From the IMG/VR virus record IMGVR_UViG_3300025466_000130, positions 1 to 30,644 of that record: 30,644 nucleotides of DNA, one strand, 5' to 3'. Shown piece after piece: positions 8,188 to 30,644 of this stretch. The DNA comes from a virus. Both the position numbers and the translations under genes were made by a program. Numbering within the stretch: the first letter of the stretch is position 1; every line of letters starts with the position of its first letter. The notes below the pieces were generated by a model. That model made no database searches and was not told the origin of the DNA. It saw only the letters and a list, made by a program, of their open reading frames with translations.

Positions 8188-9522
8188 TTACATGAGGTTT
8201 TTTACCCCGAAAATACGGTAGTAAACGTTTTGACGTGGATTGATAACACCGTTGCTAGCATTTAAGCCTTGAGCAAATGGGTTAGCGACCATACCGTAAC
8301 GAGTTTTGAAACCGATTTTAGGTTGGAATGTAAATTGGTCTACAGCACGAACCATTTGCAATGGAACGTAAGGGCAATAGAACAAACCAGCATCGTAAGG
8401 TGAAGAACCTTTGTAGCCTACGGTTACCAATTCTTGGTTAGATGTATATCCACCAAAGTATGGGTCGATGTAAACTTTAATACGACCATGCAACATACCA
8501 GCAAATGTATTACCTGTGTCATCTACTTGTAAGTCAGCTTGAAGAGCAGGTGTATACGAAAGAACACCAGCCATAGCCATTGCTGAAGCTACGTCAGAAG
8601 AAACAATCAATACGTTACCTTTTCCACGACGTGTTTGCTTAGCAATTACGTTAGCATCACGTTCGATTTGGAAAATCAAACCTTTAAAGCGTTCTACTGA
8701 CCAACGACCGTTTGAATCTGTATCCAAGTCGAAATAACCAGCAGTAGTTGTACCGTACTGAGCACCAAGAACAGCAGTGGTGTAGATTGTACGAATAACT
8801 TCACGGTTAATTTCAGCAAGAATTTCAGTAGACAGAATGTTAGACAATTCTGTTTCAGCGTCAAGACCATGAATTGCTTTCAAGTCTTGTGCCAACTCTA
8901 ATGAGTATTCAGCTTTCAAGGCACGGGATTGTGCAGTAACAGTAACTTTCTCGATTGAGAAGGCCATTTGTTGGAATGCATTAGCGCCGTCAGCACCCAA
9001 GAACTCAGCGGAACCAGTTTGAATACCGATACCTGCAGTAAATGCGTTAGATGCTTCGTTACCAACTGCTGTGTTCGATGTATCAGTACTTGGAGTACCT
9101 ACGAAACCGTAGTTGTTAAATCCGCTATTAGCAGATGACTGACCGGAGAACATTGTGTTTGCTTCGTTAAAGAAAGCTTCTGAACCGGCTTGATTGCCGT
9201 AACGAGCACGCATTGCAAAGATCAATCCTGTTGGACCTGTCATTGGTTGAACACCAGCAACATCATAGGCGATCAAATTAGGCAATGAACGGCGAACCAA
9301 AGAAATCAAGATTGGGTCAAAGTTTTGAACACCACCAGTAACGTTTGTAGGACCTGTATCGCTGGTCTCCATCAAAGCTTGGCGATCTTTTGCCATTGCT
9401 TGGTGTTGGTTTTCCAAAACAAGAGCTGTAACAGCCTTTTTGTATGGGTCTTTAATGGCTTCTAATTCTGGATGATTCAGAACTGGATCCCATTTTTTTT
9501 GTAATTCTTCTGTTAAATACAT
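8188..9522 (-). CDS. 23: Major capsid protein gp23
   Basis: This protein forms the hexameric lattice of the head. The diagnostic T4-family segment FDPILISLVRRSLPNLIAYD is followed by GVQPMTGPTGLIFAMR. The C-terminal half has LIFQIERDANVIAKQTRRGKG and SPYDAGLFYCPYVPLQMV, also typical. It is 444 residues, shorter than T4 gp23 (521) and similar to aquatic relatives. A candidate gp21 cleavage site (L-x-E) is LME at residues 50-52, just before the conserved domain, which would remove a basic/acidic 52-residue pro-segment; this is inference. AAGGAT precedes the ATG. The gene follows the scaffold gene by 31 bases and is ended by a strong terminator. Confidence 0.97.
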   Translation of the reverse strand: MYLTEELQKKWDPVLNHPELEAIKDPYKKAVTALVLENQHQAMAKDRQALMETSDTGPTNVTGGVQNFDPILISLVRRSLPNLIAYDVAGVQPMTGPTGLIFAMRARYGNQAGSEAFFNEANTMFSGQSSANSGFNNYGFVGTPSTDTSNTAVGNEASNAFTAGIGIQTGSAEFLGADGANAFQQMAFSIEKVTVTAQSRALKAEYSLELAQDLKAIHGLDAETELSNILSTEILAEINREVIRTIYTTAVLGAQYGTTTAGYFDLDTDSNGRWSVERFKGLIFQIERDANVIAKQTRRGKGNVLIVSSDVASAMAMAGVLSYTPALQADLQVDDTGNTFAGMLHGRIKVYIDPYFGGYTSNQELVTVGYKGSSPYDAGLFYCPYVPLQMVRAVDQFTFQPKIGFKTRYGMVANPFAQGLNASNGVINPRQNVYYRIFGVKNLM

Positions 9523-9553
9523 TTTGTATCCTTTTTTTTAATAATTCGGTTAA

Positions 9554-10747
9554 TTACTTAACCAATGTTTGTGAAATGGTTTTAGCATAGAGGTCCATTG
9601 AAGGATCGGCAGACTTAAATACTTTCTTTTCTTCTTCAATATCAACTTCTTCATCTAAAGCAAGTTTAGTTGCTACTTTAACGTCTGACTTGAAATATGA
9701 TTCTTTCAAAGTTGTTAGTTTAGTATCAAAATCTTCCTCAGTATTAAATTCTACGTTCTCTGCGAGCGATTTTAATTTTTCTACTTGAGTTTGCGATAGG
9801 CCTTCACACGCTGTGTAGATAGCCTCAATTTTTTTCTGTTCGTTTAATTCTTTTGTAAGTTCAACTGATTTGCTGATCTGTTCGTTTAAAGAAGATTCAA
9901 GTTCTTCAACTTTAGTCATCAATTCTTCAACAACATCAACTTTTTCGGTAGGAATGTCAATGTATGATTCAACAAACAAGTCACGCAATTTAGCCATAAA
10001 TTCTTCAACAACTTCAGCACGTAGGCCTTTTTCAATAGCGATTTCGTTTTCTTTCATCCATTCTTCTACCATATAGTTGAGATAATCATCAACTTTAGCA
10101 GCCAAATCTTCTTTAATTTCTTCTACGGCAATTTCAAACTGTTCTGTCAATTGAGCTTCAACTTCTTCTACAATTGATTCAACACGGGACATAACAGCAG
10201 CTTCATAGATTGTAGAAGCTTTAGTTTTAAATTCTTCTGAAAGATTTTCACCTTGCATCAAGGCTTCAATATCTTCACCGTAGGATTGAAATGTAGCACC
10301 TGGATTGGCTTGCATCATTTGTGGAGCAATTTTGCCAGCAATACGATCACGAATAGCAGAGTAATCAGTAGCAGCTGCTTGAACAGGAGTCATAACATCA
10401 GTACGACCCATTGTTGATTGTGGTTGACCTTTTGGAACAGATGCGCCAACACCGTCACCTTGAGCGCCGACAGGTGGAGTTGCACCAGGAGGAGTTGCAG
10501 ATGCGGTACCTTTTAAGTAACTTGGAAGTGCATCATTAATTTCTTCTGGAGATTGACCAATTTCACCCACATCGGTTGTACCATAAGCAGTTTTACCTGA
10601 AAGTTTATCAGCACCAACTTCACCGTCAGGGTGTTTGTCTGAACCACGAGCACCTTTTTTAGATGCAATATTTGCATCAAATGTTTCTTTTGAACCTTCA
10701 CCAACTAATACTTGCTTAGCGGCTTCGGACAGATTAAATTTTCCCAT
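9554..10747 (-). CDS. 22: Prohead core scaffolding protein gp22
   Basis: It forms the internal scaffold on which gp23 assembles and is later degraded by gp21. The first 150 residues are Gly/Pro/Ala-rich and probably disordered. Residues 150-330 are strongly helical and acidic, with YGEDIEALMQGENLSEEFK followed by TKASTIYEAAVMSRV, the conserved gp22 signature, and coiled coil (VVEELMTKVEELESSLNEQ). At 397 residues it is clearly longer than T4 gp22 (about 269), mostly because of the N-terminal region. The start has AAGGAGAT upstream and an exact late octamer at 10776-10783. It lies between protease and capsid, as in T4. Confidence 0.92.
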   Translation of the reverse strand: MGKFNLSEAAKQVLVGEGSKETFDANIASKKGARGSDKHPDGEVGADKLSGKTAYGTTDVGEIGQSPEEINDALPSYLKGTASATPPGATPPVGAQGDGVGASVPKGQPQSTMGRTDVMTPVQAAATDYSAIRDRIAGKIAPQMMQANPGATFQSYGEDIEALMQGENLSEEFKTKASTIYEAAVMSRVESIVEEVEAQLTEQFEIAVEEIKEDLAAKVDDYLNYMVEEWMKENEIAIEKGLRAEVVEEFMAKLRDLFVESYIDIPTEKVDVVEELMTKVEELESSLNEQISKSVELTKELNEQKKIEAIYTACEGLSQTQVEKLKSLAENVEFNTEEDFDTKLTTLKESYFKSDVKVATKLALDEEVDIEEEKKVFKSADPSMDLYAKTISQTLVK

Positions 10748-19459: not shown

Positions 19460-20644
19460 TTATGAAGCCGCACCTTTTATAATAACATATTGTAATATTG
19501 GAGATTCCGTTGCAACTGTACTAAAGCTTCGAATGGTGACATTTGCTTGACCAGCAGAAGTATTAGAAGCAAAATGATAATTACCCAAAGTGCCACCGGA
19601 CCAATGATTGATCATCAAAAAATCATTTGCTGATATTGTGGAATTTGTAAGTACAAAAGTATTTGATGTATTATTTGCCATTGCTTGTGAAAATAATGTG
19701 ATTTGTCCTGAGGGTTTATTTAAAGTTACACCAGTTACTCTGGATGTAATCTGTGCAATCGTACCACCAGAACCAGTTGCATATCCAATACCATTGCCTG
19801 TTGTTGTAATTAAACCTGACGTTGATACATTTGTTGTTGTAATTGTTCCATTACTATACAAATTAACTATAGGTGTTGTGTTTGGACCACCAGTATAAAA
19901 AGTAATTTGATCTGAAGGTCCAACCGAAATTCTTCCAATTCCTGATACATAATCAACAACAATGCCATCTGCGTATGTACCTGTAAAATTATTTGTTACA
20001 TATAAACCGTTATTACTTGTAAGTGTATTACCTGTGGCAAGTGCACCTGTAAATGATCCACCAATTGTGGTATTTGTAATAGATGACACACGACCATTAG
20101 CAGTTAATGTAATAACGGGAATATTTGTTGAATTTCCATAAACACCAGCCGAAACAATTAGTGTTGTATAGTCTGTGTTTGCTAATGCTTGAACTGAAAC
20201 CATATTAGCATTTTGAATTTGATCTACTGTATTTTGCCAAGCATTTACACCAATAATATATGATATATTGGCATTAGCTGTATTTAAACCACCTTGTAGA
20301 TAATTAGTATTTCCTGAAACTGTATTTGCAATAGCACTAGCAATGTTTGCTTGGCCATAAGCGGCAGTTGTAAATGACAAAGAAGCTTCAACTAAAGCTT
20401 GTGCATTACTTTGATTAAATGCTGTTTGAGCTAAAATAATTGCAATATTTGCTTGACGAATAGCTGAATTGGCTAAAGTTCTTGCAACATTATCTGTACT
20501 ACCTATTGGATAACCACCAGGAGTTAAACCATCATGAATGGTTAAAATATGATTAGTGTTATCAATAATTAATTCGCCAGGTGCTCCTGTTGTAGTAGCA
20601 ACTACTGTATTAGCATAACGTTTAAGTTGTAATGTTCTTGACAT
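19460..20644 (-). CDS. Fibre-like virion protein inserted between gp15 and gp16
   Basis: This 394-residue protein has three parts. Residues 1-50 (LQLKRYANTVVATTTGAPGE and IIDNTNHILTIHDG) resemble the small N-terminal module of phage tropism/fibre proteins. Residues 50-190 carry Asn/Ala-rich helical repeats (NTNYLQGGLNTANANISYI, GVNAWQNTVDQIQNAN) of the same kind as the giant fibre gene at the right end of the window. The C-terminus is beta-rich, with ITSRVTGVTLNKPSGQITLF and ILQYVIIKGAAS, a tail common to many phage structural proteins. It probably forms a trimeric appendage such as a neck whisker or short fibre, though its exact place is unknown. AGGAT precedes the ATG, which is two bases from the gp15 stop. 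Confidence 0.82.
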   Translation of the reverse strand: MSRTLQLKRYANTVVATTTGAPGELIIDNTNHILTIHDGLTPGGYPIGSTDNVARTLANSAIRQANIAIILAQTAFNQSNAQALVEASLSFTTAAYGQANIASAIANTVSGNTNYLQGGLNTANANISYIIGVNAWQNTVDQIQNANMVSVQALANTDYTTLIVSAGVYGNSTNIPVITLTANGRVSSITNTTIGGSFTGALATGNTLTSNNGLYVTNNFTGTYADGIVVDYVSGIGRISVGPSDQITFYTGGPNTTPIVNLYSNGTITTTNVSTSGLITTTGNGIGYATGSGGTIAQITSRVTGVTLNKPSGQITLFSQAMANNTSNTFVLTNSTISANDFLMINHWSGGTLGNYHFASNTSAGQANVTIRSFSTVATESPILQYVIIKGAAS

Positions 20645-20645
20645 T

Positions 20646-21737
20646 TTAGGATCCTAAATCTATTGGGTTTTCTAGTTCGGTTGATAAATCATCTATACCA
20701 AAAGTATTTAAACTCAAATCACCTAAGAAATTATTTTGAGATATAACATTCGTATCAATATTTGGTGTTTCTGTTACCGTATCTGTATATGTATATAAAG
20801 TATTGGCATTAGCATCGGTTGGTGTAGGTGTAATAACAATCTGCGCAAGATTGTTTGGTTGTAATTGATATGAATTAAACAAATAACTTGCACCACTATT
20901 AATACCAATAATGTGTTGCGAAGAAACAAAATTACCATCAATATTAGTAAGTATTAGTTTATTATTTACCCAAGAAGAAACTTGGCCGGTAGCTGTTGCT
21001 GAATTAACCGAATAACCTTGATAAACAATTTCACCTATTTGATATGTTCCAACACCTGTATTTGACATATTAAATGCAACAGAATCAGAACCAGTTATAT
21101 TATTGAGAATATTAGTAATTGATGTTTTAATTAATCCAACAGTAGAAGTTTGGCCAAACACATAGCCTTTAACTGTAAAGTTTAATGTCCAAACAATCAT
21201 TCTAGGATCAGTATCTCTAGGACCTTCATAAGACACTTCTTGGCTTGTTGAATTTAATACAACCGGTATTTCTTTAATCATACCCATTTCAGGAACCAAA
21301 TTTATTTTGATTGTATAATCTGGAGCAAAATAGGGAAGTATATGTTCAATGATTTGAGTGCCATCTTCAATATTGCGAACATAGATACACAAATCAAAAT
21401 CGAAATTGTATGGTACTGGATTATATTGAGCAAGAACACCATTTTTGGTTTGAGAAAATGCTTTAAAATTGGTATTTTGTTTTCTTGTGGTATCGTATGT
21501 TAGGCCATTCATTTCAAATGACATACGAGGTAAAGTCATTTGAACTTTTTTGTCTAAATTGGCATCACCTTGTAATCGTTGAACATATAATTCTTTGGCT
21601 GCATAAGCAATAGGAACAATAAACCGTTGGGCTTCTGTTTCATCCTTATTATATCGAACTAGTGTAATGTTGTTAAAAATGTTTCCAAATCCAACAACAA
21701 GTTTACGAATAATTCTATTGTATGTGGTATTGGCCAT
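20646..21737 (-). CDS. 15: Tail sheath stabiliser / tail terminator gp15
   Basis: It caps the tail and joins it to the neck. Residues 1-210 match the T4 family, with FNNITLVRYNKDETEAQRFI, VPIAYAAKELYVQRLQGDA, TLPRMSFEMNGLTYDTTRK, YNFDFDLCIYVRNIEDGTQI and YEGPRDTDPRMIVWTLNFTV. The 363 residues exceed T4 gp15 (272), and the excess is a C-terminal extension. That extension holds a beta module (about 228-290, with QIGEIVYQGYSV, SSWVNNKLILTNIDGNF and IIGINSGASY) also present in gp14. The ATG overlaps the gp14 stop (TAATG). Confidence 0.95.
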   Translation of the reverse strand: MANTTYNRIIRKLVVGFGNIFNNITLVRYNKDETEAQRFIVPIAYAAKELYVQRLQGDANLDKKVQMTLPRMSFEMNGLTYDTTRKQNTNFKAFSQTKNGVLAQYNPVPYNFDFDLCIYVRNIEDGTQIIEHILPYFAPDYTIKINLVPEMGMIKEIPVVLNSTSQEVSYEGPRDTDPRMIVWTLNFTVKGYVFGQTSTVGLIKTSITNILNNITGSDSVAFNMSNTGVGTYQIGEIVYQGYSVNSATATGQVSSWVNNKLILTNIDGNFVSSQHIIGINSGASYLFNSYQLQPNNLAQIVITPTPTDANANTLYTYTDTVTETPNIDTNVISQNNFLGDLSLNTFGIDDLSTELENPIDLGS

Positions 21738-22618
21738 TAAATAGTTCCGAATGGATTTTCTTCAGTAAAATCTAAAATTGTATCAGCAGAAGTATTAATA
21801 TATGAATTATCATATACTTCTTTCTTAGCAGGATTATTTAACGGATCAAATGAAGCTAATGTATATTCTGATCCGCTGGCTTGACCAATAATTGACTGAC
21901 CATCAACAAACTCACCGGCAATATTGGACACAGACAAAGTGTTAGAAGAAGGAATCCAGGATTGAACAACGGCAACAGTAGTAGCATTTGCATATGTTTC
22001 GTCTGCTGATTGGTATACGATTTCATTAATTTTATATATTCCTGTTCCTGTGCCAATATTTAAATGTAGTGTGTATGCTGAATCTGTTACAACAGAATCT
22101 ATATCAGCAACACCAGTAGCAATAACTTCTTGTGAATATTTGAATTTTTCAAGTTCCAATTCATAGAAATAAGGAACTTTACGGCCTAACATAAAGAAAT
22201 CTTTAGTTTGATTTGTAAATTTAATTTCAAACAATTCACCCGTACCATTTAAAAATGGTATATAAACCAAATCACCCTCACGGGGTCTAGTAAATGTATT
22301 TTGTGGAACTCGTTCTGTAAATGATCTTTTAGAAAGTATTACTTGAACCGTGTTTTTAATTTCAAGTCCAAATTTAGAGAAGAATTCTTTTTCACCACCA
22401 TATTCGAGTGAATTGGAAAGATACATTTCAACCATAAAGGCAGTTTCAAAACTTTTAACCGGATCTTCACCAAAAAGAAGATCACGAGCAGCATCATTAT
22501 CGTTAGGTAAATAATATGCTTCAAAGCCTTGAACTTTGATTGATTCTACGATAATATCTTCAATTACACGTTGCTCAGGAAGACTTCCGTAATTATTAAA
22601 GTATTGTGAAATAGCCAT
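21737..22618 (-). CDS. 14: Neck protein gp14
   Basis: With gp13 it seals the filled head and joins it to the tail. N-terminal NNYGSLPEQRVIEDIIVESI followed by KVQGFEAYYLPND matches the family. FGEDPVKSFETAFMVEMYL, FSKFGLEIKNTVQVILSKR and RPREGDLVYIPFLNGTGELF are further conserved blocks. The 293 residues compare with 256 in T4. The extra part is mostly a beta module at 191-258 (KINEIVYQS, VVQSWIPSSNTLSVSNIAGE, IIGQASGSEY) shared with gp15. It follows gp13 by a single base and overlaps gp15 by one. Confidence 0.95.
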   Translation of the reverse strand: MAISQYFNNYGSLPEQRVIEDIIVESIKVQGFEAYYLPNDNDAARDLLFGEDPVKSFETAFMVEMYLSNSLEYGGEKEFFSKFGLEIKNTVQVILSKRSFTERVPQNTFTRPREGDLVYIPFLNGTGELFEIKFTNQTKDFFMLGRKVPYFYELELEKFKYSQEVIATGVADIDSVVTDSAYTLHLNIGTGTGIYKINEIVYQSADETYANATTVAVVQSWIPSSNTLSVSNIAGEFVDGQSIIGQASGSEYTLASFDPLNNPAKKEVYDNSYINTSADTILDFTEENPFGTI

Positions 22619-22619
22619 A

Positions 22620-23615
22620 TTAGTTCATGTACCATTCTAATGGGCCAAAATAGTTTGTAGCCATTTCAGATTCTAAACGTTCAATTTCAGTACAAGCTTC
22701 AGTATATAAAGTTTTTCCATCTAATGTAACGCCACCGGGTAATTGAAGTCCGGCAAATTTAGAAAGGTTATTTCCCCATGTTCTTTTGATAAGTGCTGTG
22801 GCATATTCTTTGAGCCAACGGTCATTATATACTCTGGTATAAACATCAGGATTAATTGCCGCATAACATTCTGCAATTGCAACTTGGCCAACTGGAGCTT
22901 CATTTGGGCCCCAATTCCAATCAATATACAACCTTTGCATATGTCTTTGGAATCGAATAGGAACTTCACCTGTAAACATAAGTTCCAGTGAACGTATGTG
23001 TTGTTGTGTAAGTGTATAATTGATGTATGATGCGGAGGTAAAGTCGTATAACTCGTTTAATCGTAGTTGATATCTAAGGTCAAACATATTAACATTAGAT
23101 TGCGAATCTGAAAGTGGAAATACACGGGTAACACCAACAATTTCCATTGGAAAACCTTGTGCGTCCGTAGAAGTACTTAAATCTAAGTATCTTTGATCAA
23201 CGTCACCCATTTTGTAAGCGGTAATTGTGGTACCTGTAGTTTGTACATTACCGGTTGTATCGTAATAATTTAAAGTTTCACCAACAGTAAAGGTTTGGTT
23301 TCCTTTAATTTGAACAACATTATTACCTGAAAATCCAGTGATTGTTGCAGTAGCACCTGAAGTGGCACCAATCAAGCTTGAAACGTTTGGAATATAAGGA
23401 GCAAGAGTGTTATTGGCACTTAATACTGATCCAGTTAATGCTTTAATGTAATAAACTTTTTGTAGTCCATCAAAGTGATAATCTGTCCAATATTGAAGTG
23501 CATCATCGATACGATCTTCTACTTGATCGTCATCTACGTTAATTTCGATTACAGGAAATCCGAGCCTGCGCAAACAATAAGTTTTAAAGTCATCTCGGTT
23601 TGTAATTGTTGCCAT
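22620..23615 (-). CDS. 13: Neck protein gp13
   Basis: This head completion protein forms the ring under the portal. The start RDDFKTYCLRRLGFPVIEIN and DDQVEDRIDDALQYWTDYHF are the family signature. C-terminal blocks include PIRFQRHMQRLYIDWNWG, YNDRWLKEYATALIKRTWGN and FAGLQLPGGVTLDG. The 331 residues compare with 309 in T4, with an inserted beta segment at about 80-120 (SLIGATSGATATITGF, FTVGETLNYY) akin to the modules of gp14 and gp15. AGGAG precedes the ATG; a weak late-like octamer lies upstream. Confidence 0.95.
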   Translation of the reverse strand: MATITNRDDFKTYCLRRLGFPVIEINVDDDQVEDRIDDALQYWTDYHFDGLQKVYYIKALTGSVLSANNTLAPYIPNVSSLIGATSGATATITGFSGNNVVQIKGNQTFTVGETLNYYDTTGNVQTTGTTITAYKMGDVDQRYLDLSTSTDAQGFPMEIVGVTRVFPLSDSQSNVNMFDLRYQLRLNELYDFTSASYINYTLTQQHIRSLELMFTGEVPIRFQRHMQRLYIDWNWGPNEAPVGQVAIAECYAAINPDVYTRVYNDRWLKEYATALIKRTWGNNLSKFAGLQLPGGVTLDGKTLYTEACTEIERLESEMATNYFGPLEWYMN

Positions 23616-23634: not shown

Positions 23635-23642
23635 TATTTAGG
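23635..23642 (-). promoter_or_regulatory. Weak late-like octamer before gp13
   Basis: CCTAAATA on the minus strand keeps the last six bases of TATAAATA and overlaps the stop of the upstream adhesin gene, the same placement as the exact octamer before the tube gene. The first two bases are wrong, so this is tentative. Confidence 0.3.
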
Positions 23643-24837
23643 CGACATAGGTTCCACCTGGATATGTCCAAGTGATAATTGAATTTGCACTATTAGTAAG
23701 ACCACCGGCAAAAAATTGAGTAAATGTTCCGGTTGGACCTTTAGCTGTAGATACTGCCGCATTATAGTTAGATGAAGGAACGCTCAATACAATAACGCCA
23801 TTTGCACCTCTTCCACCAGTTCCAACACCGGCTCCATAAGTAACTTGACAAGCACCTCCACCACCCGCACCGGTGTTTGCTAAACCATCTTGTGCATTTA
23901 TAGAAATTGCGTAGTTAGGTCCAACATAACCACCATTGCCTCCGCCGCCTTTACCACCTAATGCTCCGGTTTGTCCGTTAGAGTTTTGGCCGCCACCTCC
24001 TCCACCACAGACCCAATAAGACCCGGACACAAGTTGACCCTGTGTAGAACCAACAATGGGATTTAAAATTCCATCTCCACCGTTAGCACTTGCACCTGTG
24101 CCTAATCCACCTTTTTGACTTGCACCACCGCCACCAGCACTTACACCAGCTTGAGCCGGATTGACTCCACCACCATCAAATCCTTGGCCTGTGATTCCGT
24201 AACCATATGAACCGTATTGACCATAACCTTGTCCGCCACCGGATCCTCCCAATTGGCCTGACATGGCCACACCACTTTGGCCAGAACCACCACCGCCACC
24301 GCCGTAAGCATAAAAACTATTTGTGCCTGCAATACCAAAAGTAGTTACTTTACCGGATGCTCCGTTTTGACTTGCACCAGCATCACCGCCTTTGCCGCCC
24401 ATACCAACGTTGGCATAATAAATTGTTCCTGGATTTAAAGCAATTGATCCATTTATGTAACCTCCGGCACCACCACCACCACCTTGAAAAGATCCTGAAC
24501 CTCCACCGCCACCACCACCAGCAACAGATAGTACATATCCGGAATATGAAGTTGTAACTACCAACCAACTACCACTAACATAAGCTTCCATACCAGAACT
24601 GAAGCTATTAAATCTCATCATTCCATTTACTGGATTGACTGGCCGTTGAATAGTATTACCCACCGGTAATACCATGGCGGAAGTACCATTAAAAAATATA
24701 GTTGAATTGGAATCAATCGTTATTACATTTGCAGTATTGGATTGAAATTGTAATGTGTTGGGACTACTAGAAATTACACATACATTTATAGCACTGCTTG
24801 GATTAAATAGAGAATTTGCGCTGAGTTGTATTGTCAT
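23638..24837 (-). CDS. Glycine-rich adhesin-like tail fibre protein A
   Basis: This 399-residue protein has an N-terminal virion-type module (residues 1-95, with VLPVGNTIQRPVNPVNGMMR followed by FNSFSSGMEAYVSGSW). A long glycine-rich domain follows, with repeated GGGG runs (VAGGGGGGGSG, AYGGGGGGSGQ, VCGGGGGGQ, GAGGGGACQ), and the end is IITWTYPGGTYVA. Poly-Gly blocks separated by variable segments recall the receptor-binding gp38 adhesins of T-even phages, so a host-recognition role is likely but inferred. I chose ATG at 24837 because it overlaps the stop of the 91-codon gene as ATGA, with AGGATGG about ten bases upstream; an ATG at 24852 would add five residues. Confidence 0.82.
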   Translation of the reverse strand: MTIQLSANSLFNPSSAINVCVISSSPNTLQFQSNTANVITIDSNSTIFFNGTSAMVLPVGNTIQRPVNPVNGMMRFNSFSSGMEAYVSGSWLVVTTSYSGYVLSVAGGGGGGGSGSFQGGGGGAGGYINGSIALNPGTIYYANVGMGGKGGDAGASQNGASGKVTTFGIAGTNSFYAYGGGGGGSGQSGVAMSGQLGGSGGGQGYGQYGSYGYGITGQGFDGGGVNPAQAGVSAGGGGASQKGGLGTGASANGGDGILNPIVGSTQGQLVSGSYWVCGGGGGGQNSNGQTGALGGKGGGGNGGYVGPNYAISINAQDGLANTGAGGGGACQVTYGAGVGTGGRGANGVIVLSVPSSNYNAAVSTAKGPTGTFTQFFAGGLTNSANSIITWTYPGGTYVA

Positions 24838-25109
24838 ATGAAAGTTGACCATCCTGTGGTTTTATAAACCCAAATATGTCCGTTAACTGAATCATAATGT
24901 AACATTCCAACGGACGGGATTATAGGCAAAGTTTGATTTGCATAAGGTAATATAATAGCACCAGTTGAATTAAAATTTGCTGTAGGATATCCTCCAGCAA
25001 GTTGAGATATCAATAAACAATTTGATGTATTTGTTTGTATTTGTAGTGAGTTTGAACTATCGGGAGTTATAAGTATTCCCATACTATTTGCATTAATTAT
25101 AGTTGTCAT
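24834..25109 (-). CDS. Adhesin N-terminal module stub
   Basis: This 91-residue protein (MTTIINANSMGILITPD at the start) consists only of the N-terminal module found in its two neighbours. It has a beta stretch SLQIQTNTSNCLLI, then AIILPYANQTLPIIPSVGML followed by HYDSVNGHIWVYKTTGW. It stops exactly where the neighbours enter their poly-Gly domain. It could be a stand-alone fibre base, a remnant of an adhesin that lost its Gly-rich part, or a docking subunit. Its frame is intact, and it is coupled by ATGA to the downstream adhesin, with a 6-base gap after the upstream one. No clear ribosome site precedes it, so coupling to the upstream gene is likely. Confidence 0.75.
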   Translation of the reverse strand: MTTIINANSMGILITPDSSNSLQIQTNTSNCLLISQLAGGYPTANFNSTGAIILPYANQTLPIIPSVGMLHYDSVNGHIWVYKTTGWSTFI

Positions 25110-25115
25110 GATATA

Positions 25116-26690
25116 TTATGCCACATAAAATCCACCAGGATAAGTCCAAGTGACGATTGTGTTAGTGCCGCTTACTGTTGTGTAATAACTTCCTTTAACA
25201 GTCGCTAATTGAAATCTATCTGTAGGAACAGAAAGTATTACACAACCACTTCCACCAATTCCACCATTACTAGCCCCTTGTCCGCTTCCGCCACCTCCAC
25301 CACCAGTACTTGGCATTGCTGCTGATCCGGGATAATATAAATTGCTAAATAAATTATAATCAGAATAAAAATATCCGCCTTGGCCGCCGCCACCAAGACC
25401 ACCTGGTGATCCAGGTCCTAAAAGGCCGCCTTGACCGCTTTGGGTTGGTGCCTGATTTTGATTGCCATTGGCTGCACCACCTCCACCAGATAACCAATAA
25501 GCTATAGCACTATTTGTTTTATAAAAACCTAATCCAGTAGGCAGTGTTGTTGATGATAATGCTGAATATACAGGCCTTGTTGCATAAGTTCCCCCATTGC
25601 TATTATTTAACATACCTGGCCCATAAAAATTGGCAGTAGTTAGTTGCGATAAAACTAATGAAGTATCGTTTGTAATTGATTGAATGGTTCCTACAATTAC
25701 ATTAGCACCACCGTAATAGGATGTTGCTACTAAGTTAGAACCTACATTCAACTGAGTTGTAAATGATGTTCCTGTACCGGTCACAGTATTACTTGGTACC
25801 AGTATTCCATTATAATTACCAAATACTGTATTGAAAGATATTGTTCCGCTTGCAACAGCAAATTGAGGTTGCCCTGTATTTGATCCAGGAATTGGATTTA
25901 TAATTCCTTTACCACCACTTATAGTATATGGTGCAGTTTGAGTAGCTTGGCCTGAAGTACCAGCACCTCCACCCGAACAATAATATCCAGCACCTAGGGC
26001 ATATCCTCCGTCATTTCCTTGTCCGGGAATTCCTCGTCCCCATGCACCATAAGCTGCATTACCGGCATTGTACTGCACTCCTCCACCGGAACCACCCAAT
26101 CCACCTGCAAGTTGGCTTATAGTACCATTATAACCGCCATAACCACCACCAAGTGCAACAAATAATCCGGCCCAAGAACTGTTGCCTCCATTAGTAGCGG
26201 CAGTTGAAGTTGCTGTACCACCAACACCCACAACGACTGCAGTATTTGTACCTGGAGATATTTGAACTGTTGTCGATATCACACCTCCGGCACCACCGCC
26301 GCCACCAGGATTTGGTCCACCACCACCTCCACCAGCAACTATAACAAGTTGACCAAAATAATAAGCAAGCAAATCGCCCCACAGGGTGCCATCAAAAACT
26401 TCGACACCACCACCACCTTGTAAATCTGTATTGAATCTGATCATTCCATTTGCTGCAGGCACAGGCCGTTGAGCTGTATTACCAACAGGTAAACAGATTG
26501 CGTTGCTGGATCCTATAAAACTTGTTGTTTGGTTGGCATTAAAAACTATAGCCGTGTTTGAATTTAAATTGATGTTTAGTGTATTGGTATTATCTGCAAC
26601 AATCTCCATTAGCTGAGGATAAATTGCTTTTGCGCCATTGGCTAAACTAACTTCTGGTTTGGAAAACGTATTCGCATTAATAAAAGACAT
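25116..26690 (-). CDS. Glycine-rich adhesin-like tail fibre protein B
   Basis: This is a 524-residue paralogue of the downstream adhesin. The N-terminal module (AICLPVGNTAQRPVPAANGM, then IRFNTDLQGG) is followed by a poly-Gly region (VAGGGGGGPNPGGGGGAGG, YYCSGGGAGTSG). A beta-type insertion lies at about 275-365 (TVTGTGTSFTTQLNVGSNLV, VGTIQSITNDTSLVLSQL), and then a second Gly-rich part (WLSGGGGAANG, GGGGGGSGQGASNGG). The C-terminus, GCVILSVPTDRF and IVTWTYPGGFYVA, is nearly the same as in the paralogue. The insertion distinguishes it from adhesin A. Receptor binding is the likely role by analogy with Gly-rich phage adhesins. The gene starts 14 bases after the giant fibre gene. Confidence 0.82.
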   Translation of the reverse strand: MSFINANTFSKPEVSLANGAKAIYPQLMEIVADNTNTLNINLNSNTAIVFNANQTTSFIGSSNAICLPVGNTAQRPVPAANGMIRFNTDLQGGGGVEVFDGTLWGDLLAYYFGQLVIVAGGGGGGPNPGGGGGAGGVISTTVQISPGTNTAVVVGVGGTATSTAATNGGNSSWAGLFVALGGGYGGYNGTISQLAGGLGGSGGGVQYNAGNAAYGAWGRGIPGQGNDGGYALGAGYYCSGGGAGTSGQATQTAPYTISGGKGIINPIPGSNTGQPQFAVASGTISFNTVFGNYNGILVPSNTVTGTGTSFTTQLNVGSNLVATSYYGGANVIVGTIQSITNDTSLVLSQLTTANFYGPGMLNNSNGGTYATRPVYSALSSTTLPTGLGFYKTNSAIAYWLSGGGGAANGNQNQAPTQSGQGGLLGPGSPGGLGGGGQGGYFYSDYNLFSNLYYPGSAAMPSTGGGGGGSGQGASNGGIGGSGCVILSVPTDRFQLATVKGSYYTTVSGTNTIVTWTYPGGFYVA

Positions 26691-26704: not shown

Positions 26705-29700
26705 TTAAAGGATTACCCATCGACTTCCTGCCGGTACGGTTATTGTTCCTGTTGCTGTAAATGGACCAACAGATAAAGCATTATATCCCACAGGTATTAA
26801 AAATGGAGCAGAAGATGTATTAGCGTTTACAAATATACCATTGTTAGCAACAACTTCAGCTCCTGTTACTATTCCATTACTATATATGTTGCCACTAGCA
26901 CCAATACCACCAGTAACAATAATTGTACCTGTATTTGCATTTGTTGTATTATTTGATCCTGTTGCTGTAATATATTGAACAACAAGTGAAGAAGAAGTTA
27001 TTCCTCCTGTAGTACCACCACCAGTAATTGTAACACCACCAACATTCAAAGTGCCTTGAATATTTACATTACCTGTTACACCAAGACCACCGCCATTAGT
27101 AATAGTCAATGCGCCTGTTGTATTACTTATTGATGGGTTTCCACTACTAATAACTACTTGACCCGGAACTGTACCTCCAGCAAAGGCAAAGTTGAATGGT
27201 AATCCTGTAGCAGAATTATATAGAGCAGTTGTATAAACAAGATTAGCATATACGTTTCCACCTACACCTAATCCACCAGCAACAATAATAGCACCAGTAC
27301 CAAAAGAGCTAGAAACATTACTAGATGTAACATTAATTGTTTGTACAGTTAATGTATTAGAACTTAATGCTCCTGAACCTGTAATTCCAACACCATTAAC
27401 ATTTAGTAATCCTTGAATGTTTACATTACCTGTTATACCAAGACCACCAGCAACAATTAAAGCGCCAGTAGAATTGGATATTGAAGGTTGTGTATTAGAA
27501 ACAAATAATTGTGATACTGAATTTACGGTAATTAATGTACCGGTATTGGGTAAAGCGTTATTTGCTTGATTAAAGGCTGCTTGTGTGAATAAATTTTGTG
27601 TAGCATTAACACTCGTAAGAAATACTATATTAGCATTTTGAGTAGCATCAACACCTTGAGTAAACGCTATATTAGCATTTGCGGTATTAAGACCACCTTG
27701 TAGATAAGCGGTATTTGCATTTGCTTGATTTAATCCACCTTGAAGCATCGATATATTAGCATTTGTTGAAAGCTCAACTCCTGACATAAAGATTGTATTA
27801 GCAGCTGCACTATTTGCCTGAAGAAAAGCTCCATTGGTAGATGCTTGTGTAATTTGTACCCAAGTATTTTGCCAATTATCAATACCTTGAGTAGCTACTG
27901 TATTAGCATTTGCCGTTGCAAGACCACCAGTAATAAAGACTGTATTAGCACCAGCAGAATTGGCTTGAAGTGAAGCCGCATTTGTAGAAGCATAAACTAC
28001 TTTAGTTAAATTATTTTGAAAAGTGTCTACTGTTTGAGTAAATGCTATATTAGCATTTGCTGAGTTTAATCCACCTTGTATTTGTGCAATAGATAATGAA
28101 TCACCATAAGCAAGACTATATGCCGTATTAGCTTGATCATCTGTTGATTGTATCCAAGCATTTTGCCAATTATCAATACCTCTAGTAAAGGCAATATTTG
28201 CATTAGCAGTATTTAAACCACCAGTAATAAAGACTGTATTGGCAGCTGCACTATTTGCCTGAACAAATGCCGCATTAGCTTGATTATTAGTTACTTGAAT
28301 CCAAGTATTTTGCCAAGTATCTATTCCTTGAGTCCAAGCATTTTGCCAAACATCAACACCTTGAATAAAAGAAATATTAGAATTGGTTGTATTTTCAACA
28401 CCCTGGAAATAAGATACAATATCCATTCCATTAGCATATACCGAACCTGTTGAATATACTGCGTTAGCATAAAGACTGTCACCAATACCTACACCACCAG
28501 CAACAATTAAAGCACCACTAACTTGATTTGAACTTGGAAACGTATTAGAAATAACAACTTTACCTGGAATATTAATAACTCCATTGGCTTGAATTGTCAT
28601 TGCATCCGTAGCGCCATTGCCAACTACAAAATGAATTGGATTAGCTGTGTTTGTACCGAGCGTTAAATCTGAACTTGCTGAAAACACATAAACCATGTTT
28701 GGTTGATTTAATGATCCTGGTTGTCCATTATTATAACCTGGACCATTCATACCAAAATCGCCGTAATAGGTTGTATCGGTACTTAATGCTGTAGAAACAA
28801 TAAAATCAGCAGAAGCTTGTGAACCATAATTTGAATTTTGTAAAATTACTTGTTGATATTGATTTGTATTTGAAGCAAATTGTGCAAATACTCCTGGAGA
28901 ATAATATGTCAAATTTCCAATAAGAACTGAAGTGGTGTTGATAGTAGTTACATTAATTGTCGTTACATTAATTGTTGTTGCACTTAAATTTGATAAAGTG
29001 GCACCAGAAAAATTAACGGTACCTGAAAAAGTTGGACTAACATTTAGAACAACTGAACCTGTACCTGTACTGGTTTTTACTCCAGTTCCACCATCAAGTA
29101 CACCAATTGAATTTGCAAGGCCATAAATTTGACCACCAGATAAATTAGCAATTAAAGTTGCTGTTGTTGCTGAAGCATATGATATTGTATGATTGGTCGG
29201 ATTTCCAGCAAGATTTTTAAATAAGTAAAACATACCAGCCGAAGGACCGCCAGAACCTTCACGAATTAAACCGTGAAATACATTCGATGAAACAAGTCCT
29301 GGATTGATATTGGACATACCATAAAAACCAATGTCTACAACATCACCTACAGAATTATTTGATGCCAACTCAATCAAAGATTCTTTTGTTAAAAAGGTGC
29401 TTGTGTTTACAAAAGTTTGATATCCAGCAACAATTAAATTTCCAGCAATAGTTAAATCAGTAGAAATATATTGTGGTCCGGTTGTTGTAATATTTGAACG
29501 AACAATCGTACTATCTGTTAAAATTGAAATTGTTGGACCTAAACCTGTAGCAGAAATATTTGTTGAAATACCAGAACCGCCACTACCTTGAATTGTGAAT
29601 GTATTTCCACCAAAGAATTGGGTTGTTGTTCCTGTATTTGCTGCAATGTTAAGTGATGCGCTTACTGTGCTTATAGCTGAAGTAATTTTTCCATTGGCAG

Positions 29701-30644
29701 CAATTGTAATTACAGGAGTAAATGATGTTGATCCATAAGTTCCTGGAACTACACCTGATGATGATATATCAAGACCAGCAAAACTTCCGTAAATGTTACC
29801 TGTGGTAATTATTGTATTTGCTAATATATTGTTTGCTGTAAATGTATCTGTTGTTATGGAATTTGCTTTTAGGTTTCCATTGGAATCTATTCCAGTTCCA
29901 TTGATACTAAATGCTCCTACTATACTCATAGTACCATTTACAAGAACATTACCTGTAATAGATAAAGCATTTTGACCTGGTCCTGTACTAATAACACTAA
30001 TTTGATTTGCTGTCAATTGGTTTAATGTATATTGGCCAGAAATACCAACACCACCAACGGTTAAGGTACCTGTAATGTTTACGTTACCACCAACACCCAT
30101 ACCACCCGCAGTAACTAAGGAACCTGTAATATTACTTACGCTTGGAGTTGTATTAGAAACAAATAATTGTGATACTGAATTTATGGTAATTAATGTACCA
30201 GTATTGGGTAAAGCGTTAGTAGCTAATACAAAAGCAGCATTTGCATGTATAAAACTTGCATTTGCGTAAGTGTTTTGTGTAGCATCAACACCTTGAGTAA
30301 AGGCTATGTTGGCATTAGCTGTATTTAAACCACCAGTAATAAAGACTGTATTAGCACCGGCACTATTTGCTTGGTTAAAAGCCGCATTGGTAAATGTATT
30401 CTGCCAAGCATCAACACCTTGAGTAAACGCTATATTAGCATTAGCTGTATTTAAACCACCAGTAATGAAAATTGTATTAGCTGCTGCTGAATTGGCTTGG
30501 TTAAAAGCCGCATTGGTAAATGTATTTTGCCAAGCTTCAATACCAATCAACATTGATATATTAGCATTAGCAGTATTTAAACCACCAGTAATAAAGACTG
30601 TATTGGCAGCTGCTGAATTGGCTTGGTTAAAAGCCGCATTGGTA
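26705..30644 (-). CDS. Giant fibre-like structural protein, 5' end outside window
   Basis: The frame is open from the right edge to TAA at 26705-26707, giving at least 1312 residues. An internal ATG at 30553 is unlikely to be the start because the 42-residue repeat continues upstream of it in frame. The visible N-terminal part and a central block hold Asn/Ala-rich repeats (GGLNTANANIAFTQGVDAWQ, then NAAFNQANSAAANTVF). The rest is beta-structured, with at least five copies of a TGALIVAGGLGVTGNV-type motif. The C-terminus is FTATGTITVPAGSRWVIL, a fibre end seen in many aquatic phages. It is probably a trimeric long fibre or whisker. It lies directly upstream of the adhesin genes, as fibre shafts often do. 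Confidence 0.85.
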   Translation of the reverse strand, partial: TNAAFNQANSAAANTVFITGGLNTANANISMLIGIEAWQNTFTNAAFNQANSAAANTIFITGGLNTANANIAFTQGVDAWQNTFTNAAFNQANSAGANTVFITGGLNTANANIAFTQGVDATQNTYANASFIHANAAFVLATNALPNTGTLITINSVSQLFVSNTTPSVSNITGSLVTAGGMGVGGNVNITGTLTVGGVGISGQYTLNQLTANQISVISTGPGQNALSITGNVLVNGTMSIVGAFSINGTGIDSNGNLKANSITTDTFTANNILANTIITTGNIYGSFAGLDISSSGVVPGTYGSTSFTPVITIAANGKITSAISTVSASLNIAANTGTTTQFFGGNTFTIQGSGGSGISTNISATGLGPTISILTDSTIVRSNITTTGPQYISTDLTIAGNLIVAGYQTFVNTSTFLTKESLIELASNNSVGDVVDIGFYGMSNINPGLVSSNVFHGLIREGSGGPSAGMFYLFKNLAGNPTNHTISYASATTATLIANLSGGQIYGLANSIGVLDGGTGVKTSTGTGSVVLNVSPTFSGTVNFSGATLSNLSATTINVTTINVTTINTTSVLIGNLTYYSPGVFAQFASNTNQYQQVILQNSNYGSQASADFIVSTALSTDTTYYGDFGMNGPGYNNGQPGSLNQPNMVYVFSASSDLTLGTNTANPIHFVVGNGATDAMTIQANGVINIPGKVVISNTFPSSNQVSGALIVAGGVGIGDSLYANAVYSTGSVYANGMDIVSYFQGVENTTNSNISFIQGVDVWQNAWTQGIDTWQNTWIQVTNNQANAAFVQANSAAANTVFITGGLNTANANIAFTRGIDNWQNAWIQSTDDQANTAYSLAYGDSLSIAQIQGGLNSANANIAFTQTVDTFQNNLTKVVYASTNAASLQANSAGANTVFITGGLATANANTVATQGIDNWQNTWVQITQASTNGAFLQANSAAANTIFMSGVELSTNANISMLQGGLNQANANTAYLQGGLNTANANIAFTQGVDATQNANIVFLTSVNATQNLFTQAAFNQANNALPNTGTLITVNSVSQLFVSNTQPSISNSTGALIVAGGLGITGNVNIQGLLNVNGVGITGSGALSSNTLTVQTINVTSSNVSSSFGTGAIIVAGGLGVGGNVYANLVYTTALYNSATGLPFNFAFAGGTVPGQVVISSGNPSISNTTGALTITNGGGLGVTGNVNIQGTLNVGGVTITGGGTTGGITSSSLVVQYITATGSNNTTNANTGTIIVTGGIGASGNIYSNGIVTGAEVVANNGIFVNANTSSAPFLIPVGYNALSVGPFTATGTITVPAGSRWVIL
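27491..27560 (-). repeat. 70-bp direct repeat, copy 1
   Basis: It matches 30149-30218 at 68 of 70 bases by eye and lies 2658 bases from it, a multiple of three. It encodes the LPNTGTLITVNSVSQLFVSN segment of the giant fibre. Confidence 0.85.
27560..28410 (-). repeat. Degenerate fibre repeats, second block
   Basis: Diverged copies of the same coiled repeat (GIDNWQNTW, NTVFITGGLNTANANIAF and variants) fill this block with irregular unit length. Some units are shortened to NQANANTAYLQGGLNTANAN. It is older or less homogenised than the block at the right edge. Confidence 0.75.
30149..30218 (-). repeat. 70-bp direct repeat, copy 2
   Basis: This is the partner of the copy at 27491-27560, in the same frame of the same gene. 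The two differences are single-base changes (c/t and g/a). Confidence 0.85.
30266..30644 (-). repeat. 126-bp tandem repeat in fibre gene
   Basis: Three adjacent copies of a 126-bp unit (42 codons) are visible and run off the right edge. The marker caccagtaat/a recurs at 30331, 30457 and 30583, exactly 126 bases apart. Copies differ by few bases, suggesting recent expansion or gene conversion. Confidence 0.88.

Follow-up and report, generated by a model that had tools for sequence, protein, structure and literature searches.

A tiny headless copy of an adhesin gene, encoded before a full copy, is found in many environmental phages and is probably a real building block of their attachment apparatus. 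Here, we analysed one such 91-aa stub gene, which annotation could easily dismiss as a fragment, together with the two headed paralogues that flank it. Our preferred reading, to which we assign about an even chance, is that the stub is a conserved headless structural subunit that co-assembles with its headed neighbour into a composite base or fibre segment. We regard it as a real subunit and not as debris because it is under selection, ends at an exact point, recurs, keeps its place in the gene order, overlaps the next gene through ATGA, and belongs to a family in which the headed and headless states have switched repeatedly.

Organization of the adhesin cassette

The window, i.e., the whole 30.6-kb IMG/VR virus record under study, contains T4-like neck, sheath-stabiliser and terminase genes, comprising a gp13-like adaptor, the neck protein gp14, gp15, and the small and large terminase subunits. 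Three consecutive genes on the minus strand (C, stub B and A) lie between a long repetitive fibre gene, whose complete product of 1632 aa is found in L004/L054, and the gp13-like gene (Table 1). The original prediction described the middle gene as stopping after the module with an intact frame and ATGA coupling. We confirm the frame, the module-only content and the overlap of the stub with gene A, but gene C and the stub do not share an ATGA and are separated by a 6-base gap after TAA. The longest open reading frame of gene A encodes 404 aa and opens at 24852 (24852-23638); since the ATG of this 15-base 5′ extension is present only through the conserved Trp codon of the stub, the ATGA at 24837 is the likely start (399 aa).

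Table 1 Positions of the cassette genes, their parts and the flanking genes in the window.
Feature	Position	Strand	Basis
Gene C, headed adhesin-like, 524 aa: module (residues 1-110) and Gly-rich head	25116..26690	-	ORF
N-terminal module of gene C	26361..26690	-	Alignments
Stub gene B, module only, 91 aa	24834..25109	-	ORF, profile match
ATGA stop/start overlap of stub and gene A	24834..24837	-	Sequence
Gene A, headed adhesin-like, 399 aa from ATGA start	23638..24837	-	ORF and comparative junctions
N-terminal module of gene A	24541..24837	-	Profile match, alignment
Head of gene A, predicted TNF-like/Gly-rich fold as in Pam3 gp24	23641..24540	-	Predicted model, VIA-align
gp13-like head-tail adaptor, directly 3′ of cassette	22620..23615	-	PHROG 211, 1.6e-38
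Long repetitive fibre protein, directly 5′ of cassette, open at contig end	26705..30553	-	ORF

Among the neighbouring genes, the gp14-like (21737-22618) and gp15-like (20646-21737) proteins have a similar extra C-terminal segment (GxGxYxIxEIVYQ ... VxSW ... IIGxxSGxxY), and residues 220-295 of gp15 weakly match PHROG 460 (head closure). The gp13-like protein is ~74 residues longer than its homologue in the related contig L169 (IMGVR_UViG_3300034198_015152; 331 vs 257 aa). Between gp15 and the terminase small subunit, a further fibre-like protein is encoded (19460-20644), whose N-terminus weakly matches Mtd_N (0.012, below the cut-off). Near-identical DNA repeats are abundant near the 5′ end of the long fibre gene (26705-30644; L004/L054). 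The last ~45 residues of its product (NGIFVNANTS...YNALSVGPFT...GSRWVIL) recur as the C-terminus of a 114-aa protein of L169 (L169 3199-3543), and in other loci many small fibre genes terminate in SRWVI/QRWVVI-like sequences.

One N-terminal module in three genes

That C, stub B and A share one N-terminal module of ~90-110 aa, as originally proposed, was borne out by a profile of 124 modules, all taken from other contigs and none from the window, which matched A (6.6e-21), C (3.6e-17) and the stub (9e-13); the best E among 400 shuffled modules with any of four profiles was 0.96. The stub and A are also related by tblastn (31% identity, E 9e-9). The literal motif proposed for all three genes, LPxGNTxQRPVxxxNGMxRFN, is present in A and C but not in the stub, which has LPYANQTLPIIPSVGMLHYD. 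The stub is a diverged copy, homologous by profile, that has lost the QRP box, a motif nearly invariant in modules elsewhere, and it ends 4 residues past the conserved Trp. In terms of module type, gene C scores as the first-position type (type I; 60.5 vs 52.7 bits) and the stub of the last-position type (type II; 58.6 vs 38.6 bits).

A sequence search of solved structures with the module and full-length profiles gave no significant match. The C-terminal half of the module (PVGTTAQRP..NGMIRYN..W) occurs in 248 phage records, mostly Synechococcus and Prochlorococcus phages, as part of cyanophage and pelagic-phage proteins; its carriers in S-RIM2 and S-CAM8 are larger proteins, unlike the stub, and none of the phage records covers 80% of the L046 stub, a relative from another contig. 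Among isolated phages, tblastn returned no match to C (E up to 1e-5) or to the stub (E up to 1); matches there were to the half-module only, or weak and full-length (<41%) in larger proteins, with no full-stub isolate. Bacterial genomes likewise held the half-module only and no further stub.

Gly-rich heads of genes A and C

Pfam PF21722 (Gly_rich_2) was recovered in A (1.5e-12, 48.5 bits) and C (4.3e-8, 33.9 bits), in both cases above the curated cut-off of 24.3 bits, and both proteins have the expected C-termini, TWTYPGGTYVA and TWTYPGGFYVA. The earlier description of two genes continuing into Gly-rich domains with matching ends is therefore correct. No Pfam family, Gly_rich_2 included, was found in the stub at E up to 1. 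The gene C head contains an insert (~25640-25820, residues ~290-350) that matches the tail-fibre PHROG 1980 (residues 300-349, 2.5e-4), with none in A.

In the single-chain model of gene A (pLDDT 84.2), VIA-align superposed the predicted head on Pam3 gp24 (7ypx_A; Z 13.4, 2.5 A, 173 aligned, 28% identity, model residues about 95-359) and on a Bxb1 tail-tip chain (9d93_Qb; Z 14.8, 3.2 A, 178 aligned), while S16 gp38 (6F45) was absent among the Foldseek and VIA-align matches listed for gene A. These models weaken the parallel drawn originally with the Gly-rich adhesins of T-even phages: because the predicted head aligns with Pam3 gp24 and the Bxb1 chain, a Pam3 gp24-type likeness would rank above gp38, which becomes the second-best analogy. 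The heads presumably bind host receptors, and by analogy a host-range function of the cassette is plausible.

Predicted structure of the stub

The AlphaFold2 single-chain model of the stub (pLDDT 87.8) is compact and all-beta with zero helices, and the C-terminal alpha-helical trimerisation domain of the Tfa/gp25 type is missing. Of the structure predictions originally suggested, of trimers of all three proteins, the single-chain folds of the stub and gene A were obtained. Foldseek found no match to the module at E <=0.001 and none below 0.16, and likeness of the module to trimer domains was weak (best Z 3.0). Residues 52-91 of the stub weakly match the collagen XV/XVIII trimerisation domain, the Mtd N-terminus and CBA120 TSP3, with values of 1.1-1.3 A over about 26 columns for collagen XVIII (weak E 0.8-1.8) and Z 2.7, 2.4 A over 40 for Mtd. 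Further weak matches of the stub were to HylP2 and the P22 tailspike, and a module fragment weakly resembles segments of CBA120 TSP3/TSP4. Many of the weak stub matches are trimer-forming segments, which may hint at trimerisation.

Conservation of the stub and variability of the slot

A contig 99.97% identical over 11.3 kb carries the same three genes and encodes the complete 1632-aa version of the long fibre protein. The more diverged L169 has a cassette with 78% DNA identity to the window and the same order of headed gene (522 aa), stub (90 aa), headed gene (407 aa) and gp13. Comparison across related phages had been proposed as a check, and the stub is neither absent nor frameshifted in all close relatives, its frame and ATGA overlap being intact in L169. 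Protein identity between the two phages is 80% for gene C and 68% for the stub. The stub shows pS 0.40 and pN 0.19, with a pN/pS of 0.47 (bootstrap 95% 0.31-0.74), against 0.20 and 0.32 in the modules of C and A, respectively; hence the stub evolves faster than the neighbouring modules and is nevertheless constrained by purifying selection. In other stub pairs close enough for comparison, dN/dS (simple Nei-Gojobori count) was 0.10-0.35.

In further T4-like contigs whose gp13/gp15 are related, the cassette slot is occupied by quite different fibre genes. Consequently, the slot between the long fibre gene and gp13 is hypervariable, in agreement with the suggestion that this is the most variable part of the window, and its three genes seem to be swapped together.

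Recurrence of stubs before headed genes

Searches with the stub and module alignments recovered loci with 127 distinct N-terminal modules. Sampling started from stubs and modules, and the frequencies given here are therefore not population estimates; likewise, counts refer to distinct sequences from metagenomic contigs and not to independent events. Stubs were first (24) or middle (2) in adjacent arrays and never last or alone, while headed genes were last (49), first (27), middle (6) or alone (18), in addition to one cut gene (not-last vs last: Fisher 6e-9, with no correction for relatedness). Once identical proteins and near-duplicate loci had been grouped, 24 distinct stub proteins remained; all 24 are encoded directly 5′ of a headed gene, and 0 are last. 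The stub ends exactly 4 residues after its last Trp in 22/24 and 3 after in 2/24. An in-frame ATGA overlap is present at 43 of the 56 distinct array junctions, and most of the overlaps that look 19 bases long are ATGA junctions read from an earlier start codon, located within the conserved Trp codon or close to it. Among the loci recovered by the stub searches are the contractile-tailed phage L045 (tail sheath and adaptor) and contigs, such as L052, with flanking proteins that match other families. Many arrays have a head on every gene and no stub.

An assembly frameshift was ruled out as the origin of the stubs by their fixed end, which adjoins the next start without any intervening head remnant. 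Among the junctions inspected by eye for programmed -1 frameshifting, a classical slippery heptamer was seen in L108 only.

Switching between headed and headless states

In the module tree, which is based on only 91 columns and has many open forks, first- and last-position modules fall into largely separate clades, and a third group has stub-headed pairs of its own (L124, L127 and L133). At least 7 changes of the headless state are forced by starred branches, and parsimony gives 11. The first slot is headless in L045, L046, L051 and L071, which have four closely related stubs, and holds a protein with a Gly-rich head in L050, L066, L081 and others. In L048, the module of the first-slot headed gene (8682-9983) shares 79% identity with the L046 stub and is followed, where others have a Gly-rich head, by a head whose BNR-like match is weak and below the cut-off. 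The window stub and, by tree placement, the middle stub of L115 are of the last-position type, so that the loss or gain of heads extends to more than one lineage. Head loss or gain is thus repeated and takes place at the exact boundary, and the stub is conserved afterwards. The original prediction left a choice between duplication with domain loss and a base-plus-adhesin arrangement; since the stub is kept in the diverged L169 and the same arrangement recurs in many phages, the latter is favoured over domain loss as mere decay.

A candidate function for the stub and competing explanations

We infer that translation of the two genes is coupled by their overlap, that the module forms trimers, and that the stub and the headed protein enter one assembly. 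In the composite-segment reading, the stub would be a genuine virion or virion-assembly subunit, consisting of the attachment/oligomerisation module of the adhesin family minus the receptor-binding head, and its translation would be coupled to that of the headed paralogue that follows it. Two modules (three in the window phage) would assemble into one composite base/fibre segment with heads on some subunits only, so that the stub would complete the base and set the number and spacing of displayed heads, and the module/head boundary might be where heads are acquired, dropped or swapped. Stub homotrimers could form a stack of beads tipped by the headed trimer, similar to the A-1(L) neck fibre, or stub and headed chains could share one trimer, where headless chains would leave fewer heads per trimer. 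A stricter form of the latter appears rather doubtful to us, namely that headless paralogues are obligate subunits of mixed trimers, forming an asymmetric base in which one or two headless chains set the heads per site, with heads switched at an exact boundary across unrelated phages. The heads of neighbouring paralogues were not clearly more alike than expected, and concerted evolution of heads within a phage, a weak candidate at a mean percentile of 0.56, therefore lends no real support to shared trimers. Counting against a composite subunit in general, a stub is not a necessary part of an array, since many arrays are fully headed, the structural matches of the module are weak, and the QRP motif is missing in the window stub.

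Stub homotrimers might instead fill the docking sites of the headed proteins and so lower or space adhesin density without direct contact. The shared module, hence plausibly a shared docking partner, and the interchange of headed and headless states in one slot are in line with such site filling, which we nonetheless consider unlikely, as it leaves unexplained why no stub is last and why each lies directly before, and nearly always overlaps, a headed paralogue. Chaperone pairs typically consist of a fibre gene and a small gene coupled to it. In Pam3, the chaperone was undetected in virions (PMC9608196). The stub could be a transient chaperone or nucleation partner of the headed protein, absent from the virion, as gp25 is for gp24 in Pam3. 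Such a role seems quite improbable: gp25/Tfa-type chaperones are not paralogous to the attachment module of their client, whereas the stub is homologous to its client's N-terminus, its gene precedes the client gene, its model is without helix, unlike gp25, and its slot can hold a headed protein.

Given that heads are clearly lost and gained and that the slot is hypervariable among gp13-15 relatives, one could also regard the stub as a duplicate that lost its head and persists through drift or as a substrate for recombination. This is very improbable and already largely refuted by the purifying selection seen in L169 and other stub pairs, the exact endpoint and the recurrence beside headed genes; decay of the stub as such is rejected in view of selection and recurrence. 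Finally, the frequency of ATGA junctions would suit an incidental stub peptide whose reading frame serves mainly to bring ribosomes to the headed gene. This explanation hardly seems credible, however, given that the amino-acid sequence of the stub is conserved and that headed-headed junctions have the ATGA overlap too, without any leader.

Comparison with known systems

The usual interpretation of a phage adhesin cassette is a set of receptor-binding proteins that compete with or add to one another. The conservation and fixed endpoint of the headless partner point to a composite adhesin base, where gene content would set the number of heads, and the stub defines an exact natural boundary for head exchange. 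In the open-licence literature, which is part of the whole, we found no description of a headless adhesin partner.

Pam3 gp24 (7YPX / 7YFW) resembles the predicted model of gene A in combining a short N-terminal attachment part with a TNF-like/Gly-rich head. It is a homotrimer with most of its trimer contacts at the N-terminal domain and loose ones between the heads, and host binding has been proposed for the distal loops (PMC9608196). Its N-terminus is an alpha-helical bundle, in contrast to the beta module here, and Pam3 has one fibre gene with a non-homologous chaperone, gp25, a headless paralogue not being described (PMC9608196).

The A-1(L) neck fibre is a head-to-tail chain of small trimers, terminated by a larger one (PMC10966104). 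Like the cassette, gp82-gp81-gp80 are several small proteins from one operon, which there stack as trimers, one protein recurring as a bead and a larger one forming the terminus; the record of Nostoc phage A1 has, in gene order, products of 241, 168 and 201 aa, which we take as base, bead and tip. hhalign of gp80-gp82 against the module and head gave no sequence homology (probability 0.1-0.3%, with single sequences on the A-1(L) side), and the likeness is an analogy only.

T-even gp37/gp38 (T2, S16, PP01) present a Gly-rich receptor-binding tip with hypervariable loops, encoded by a separate gene after the fibre gene. We know of no stub paralogue in that system. There, gp38 sits on the tip of the gp37 trimer (PMC12892980). 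In DT57C/DT571-2, the adjacent fibre genes LtfA and LtfB are inferred to build one branched structure, and LtfA can serve purely as the attachment site of LtfB (PMC4728585). The partners in LtfA-LtfB and in CBA120-type branched tailspikes are large multi-domain fibres, whereas the partner here is a 91-aa, module-only paralogue.
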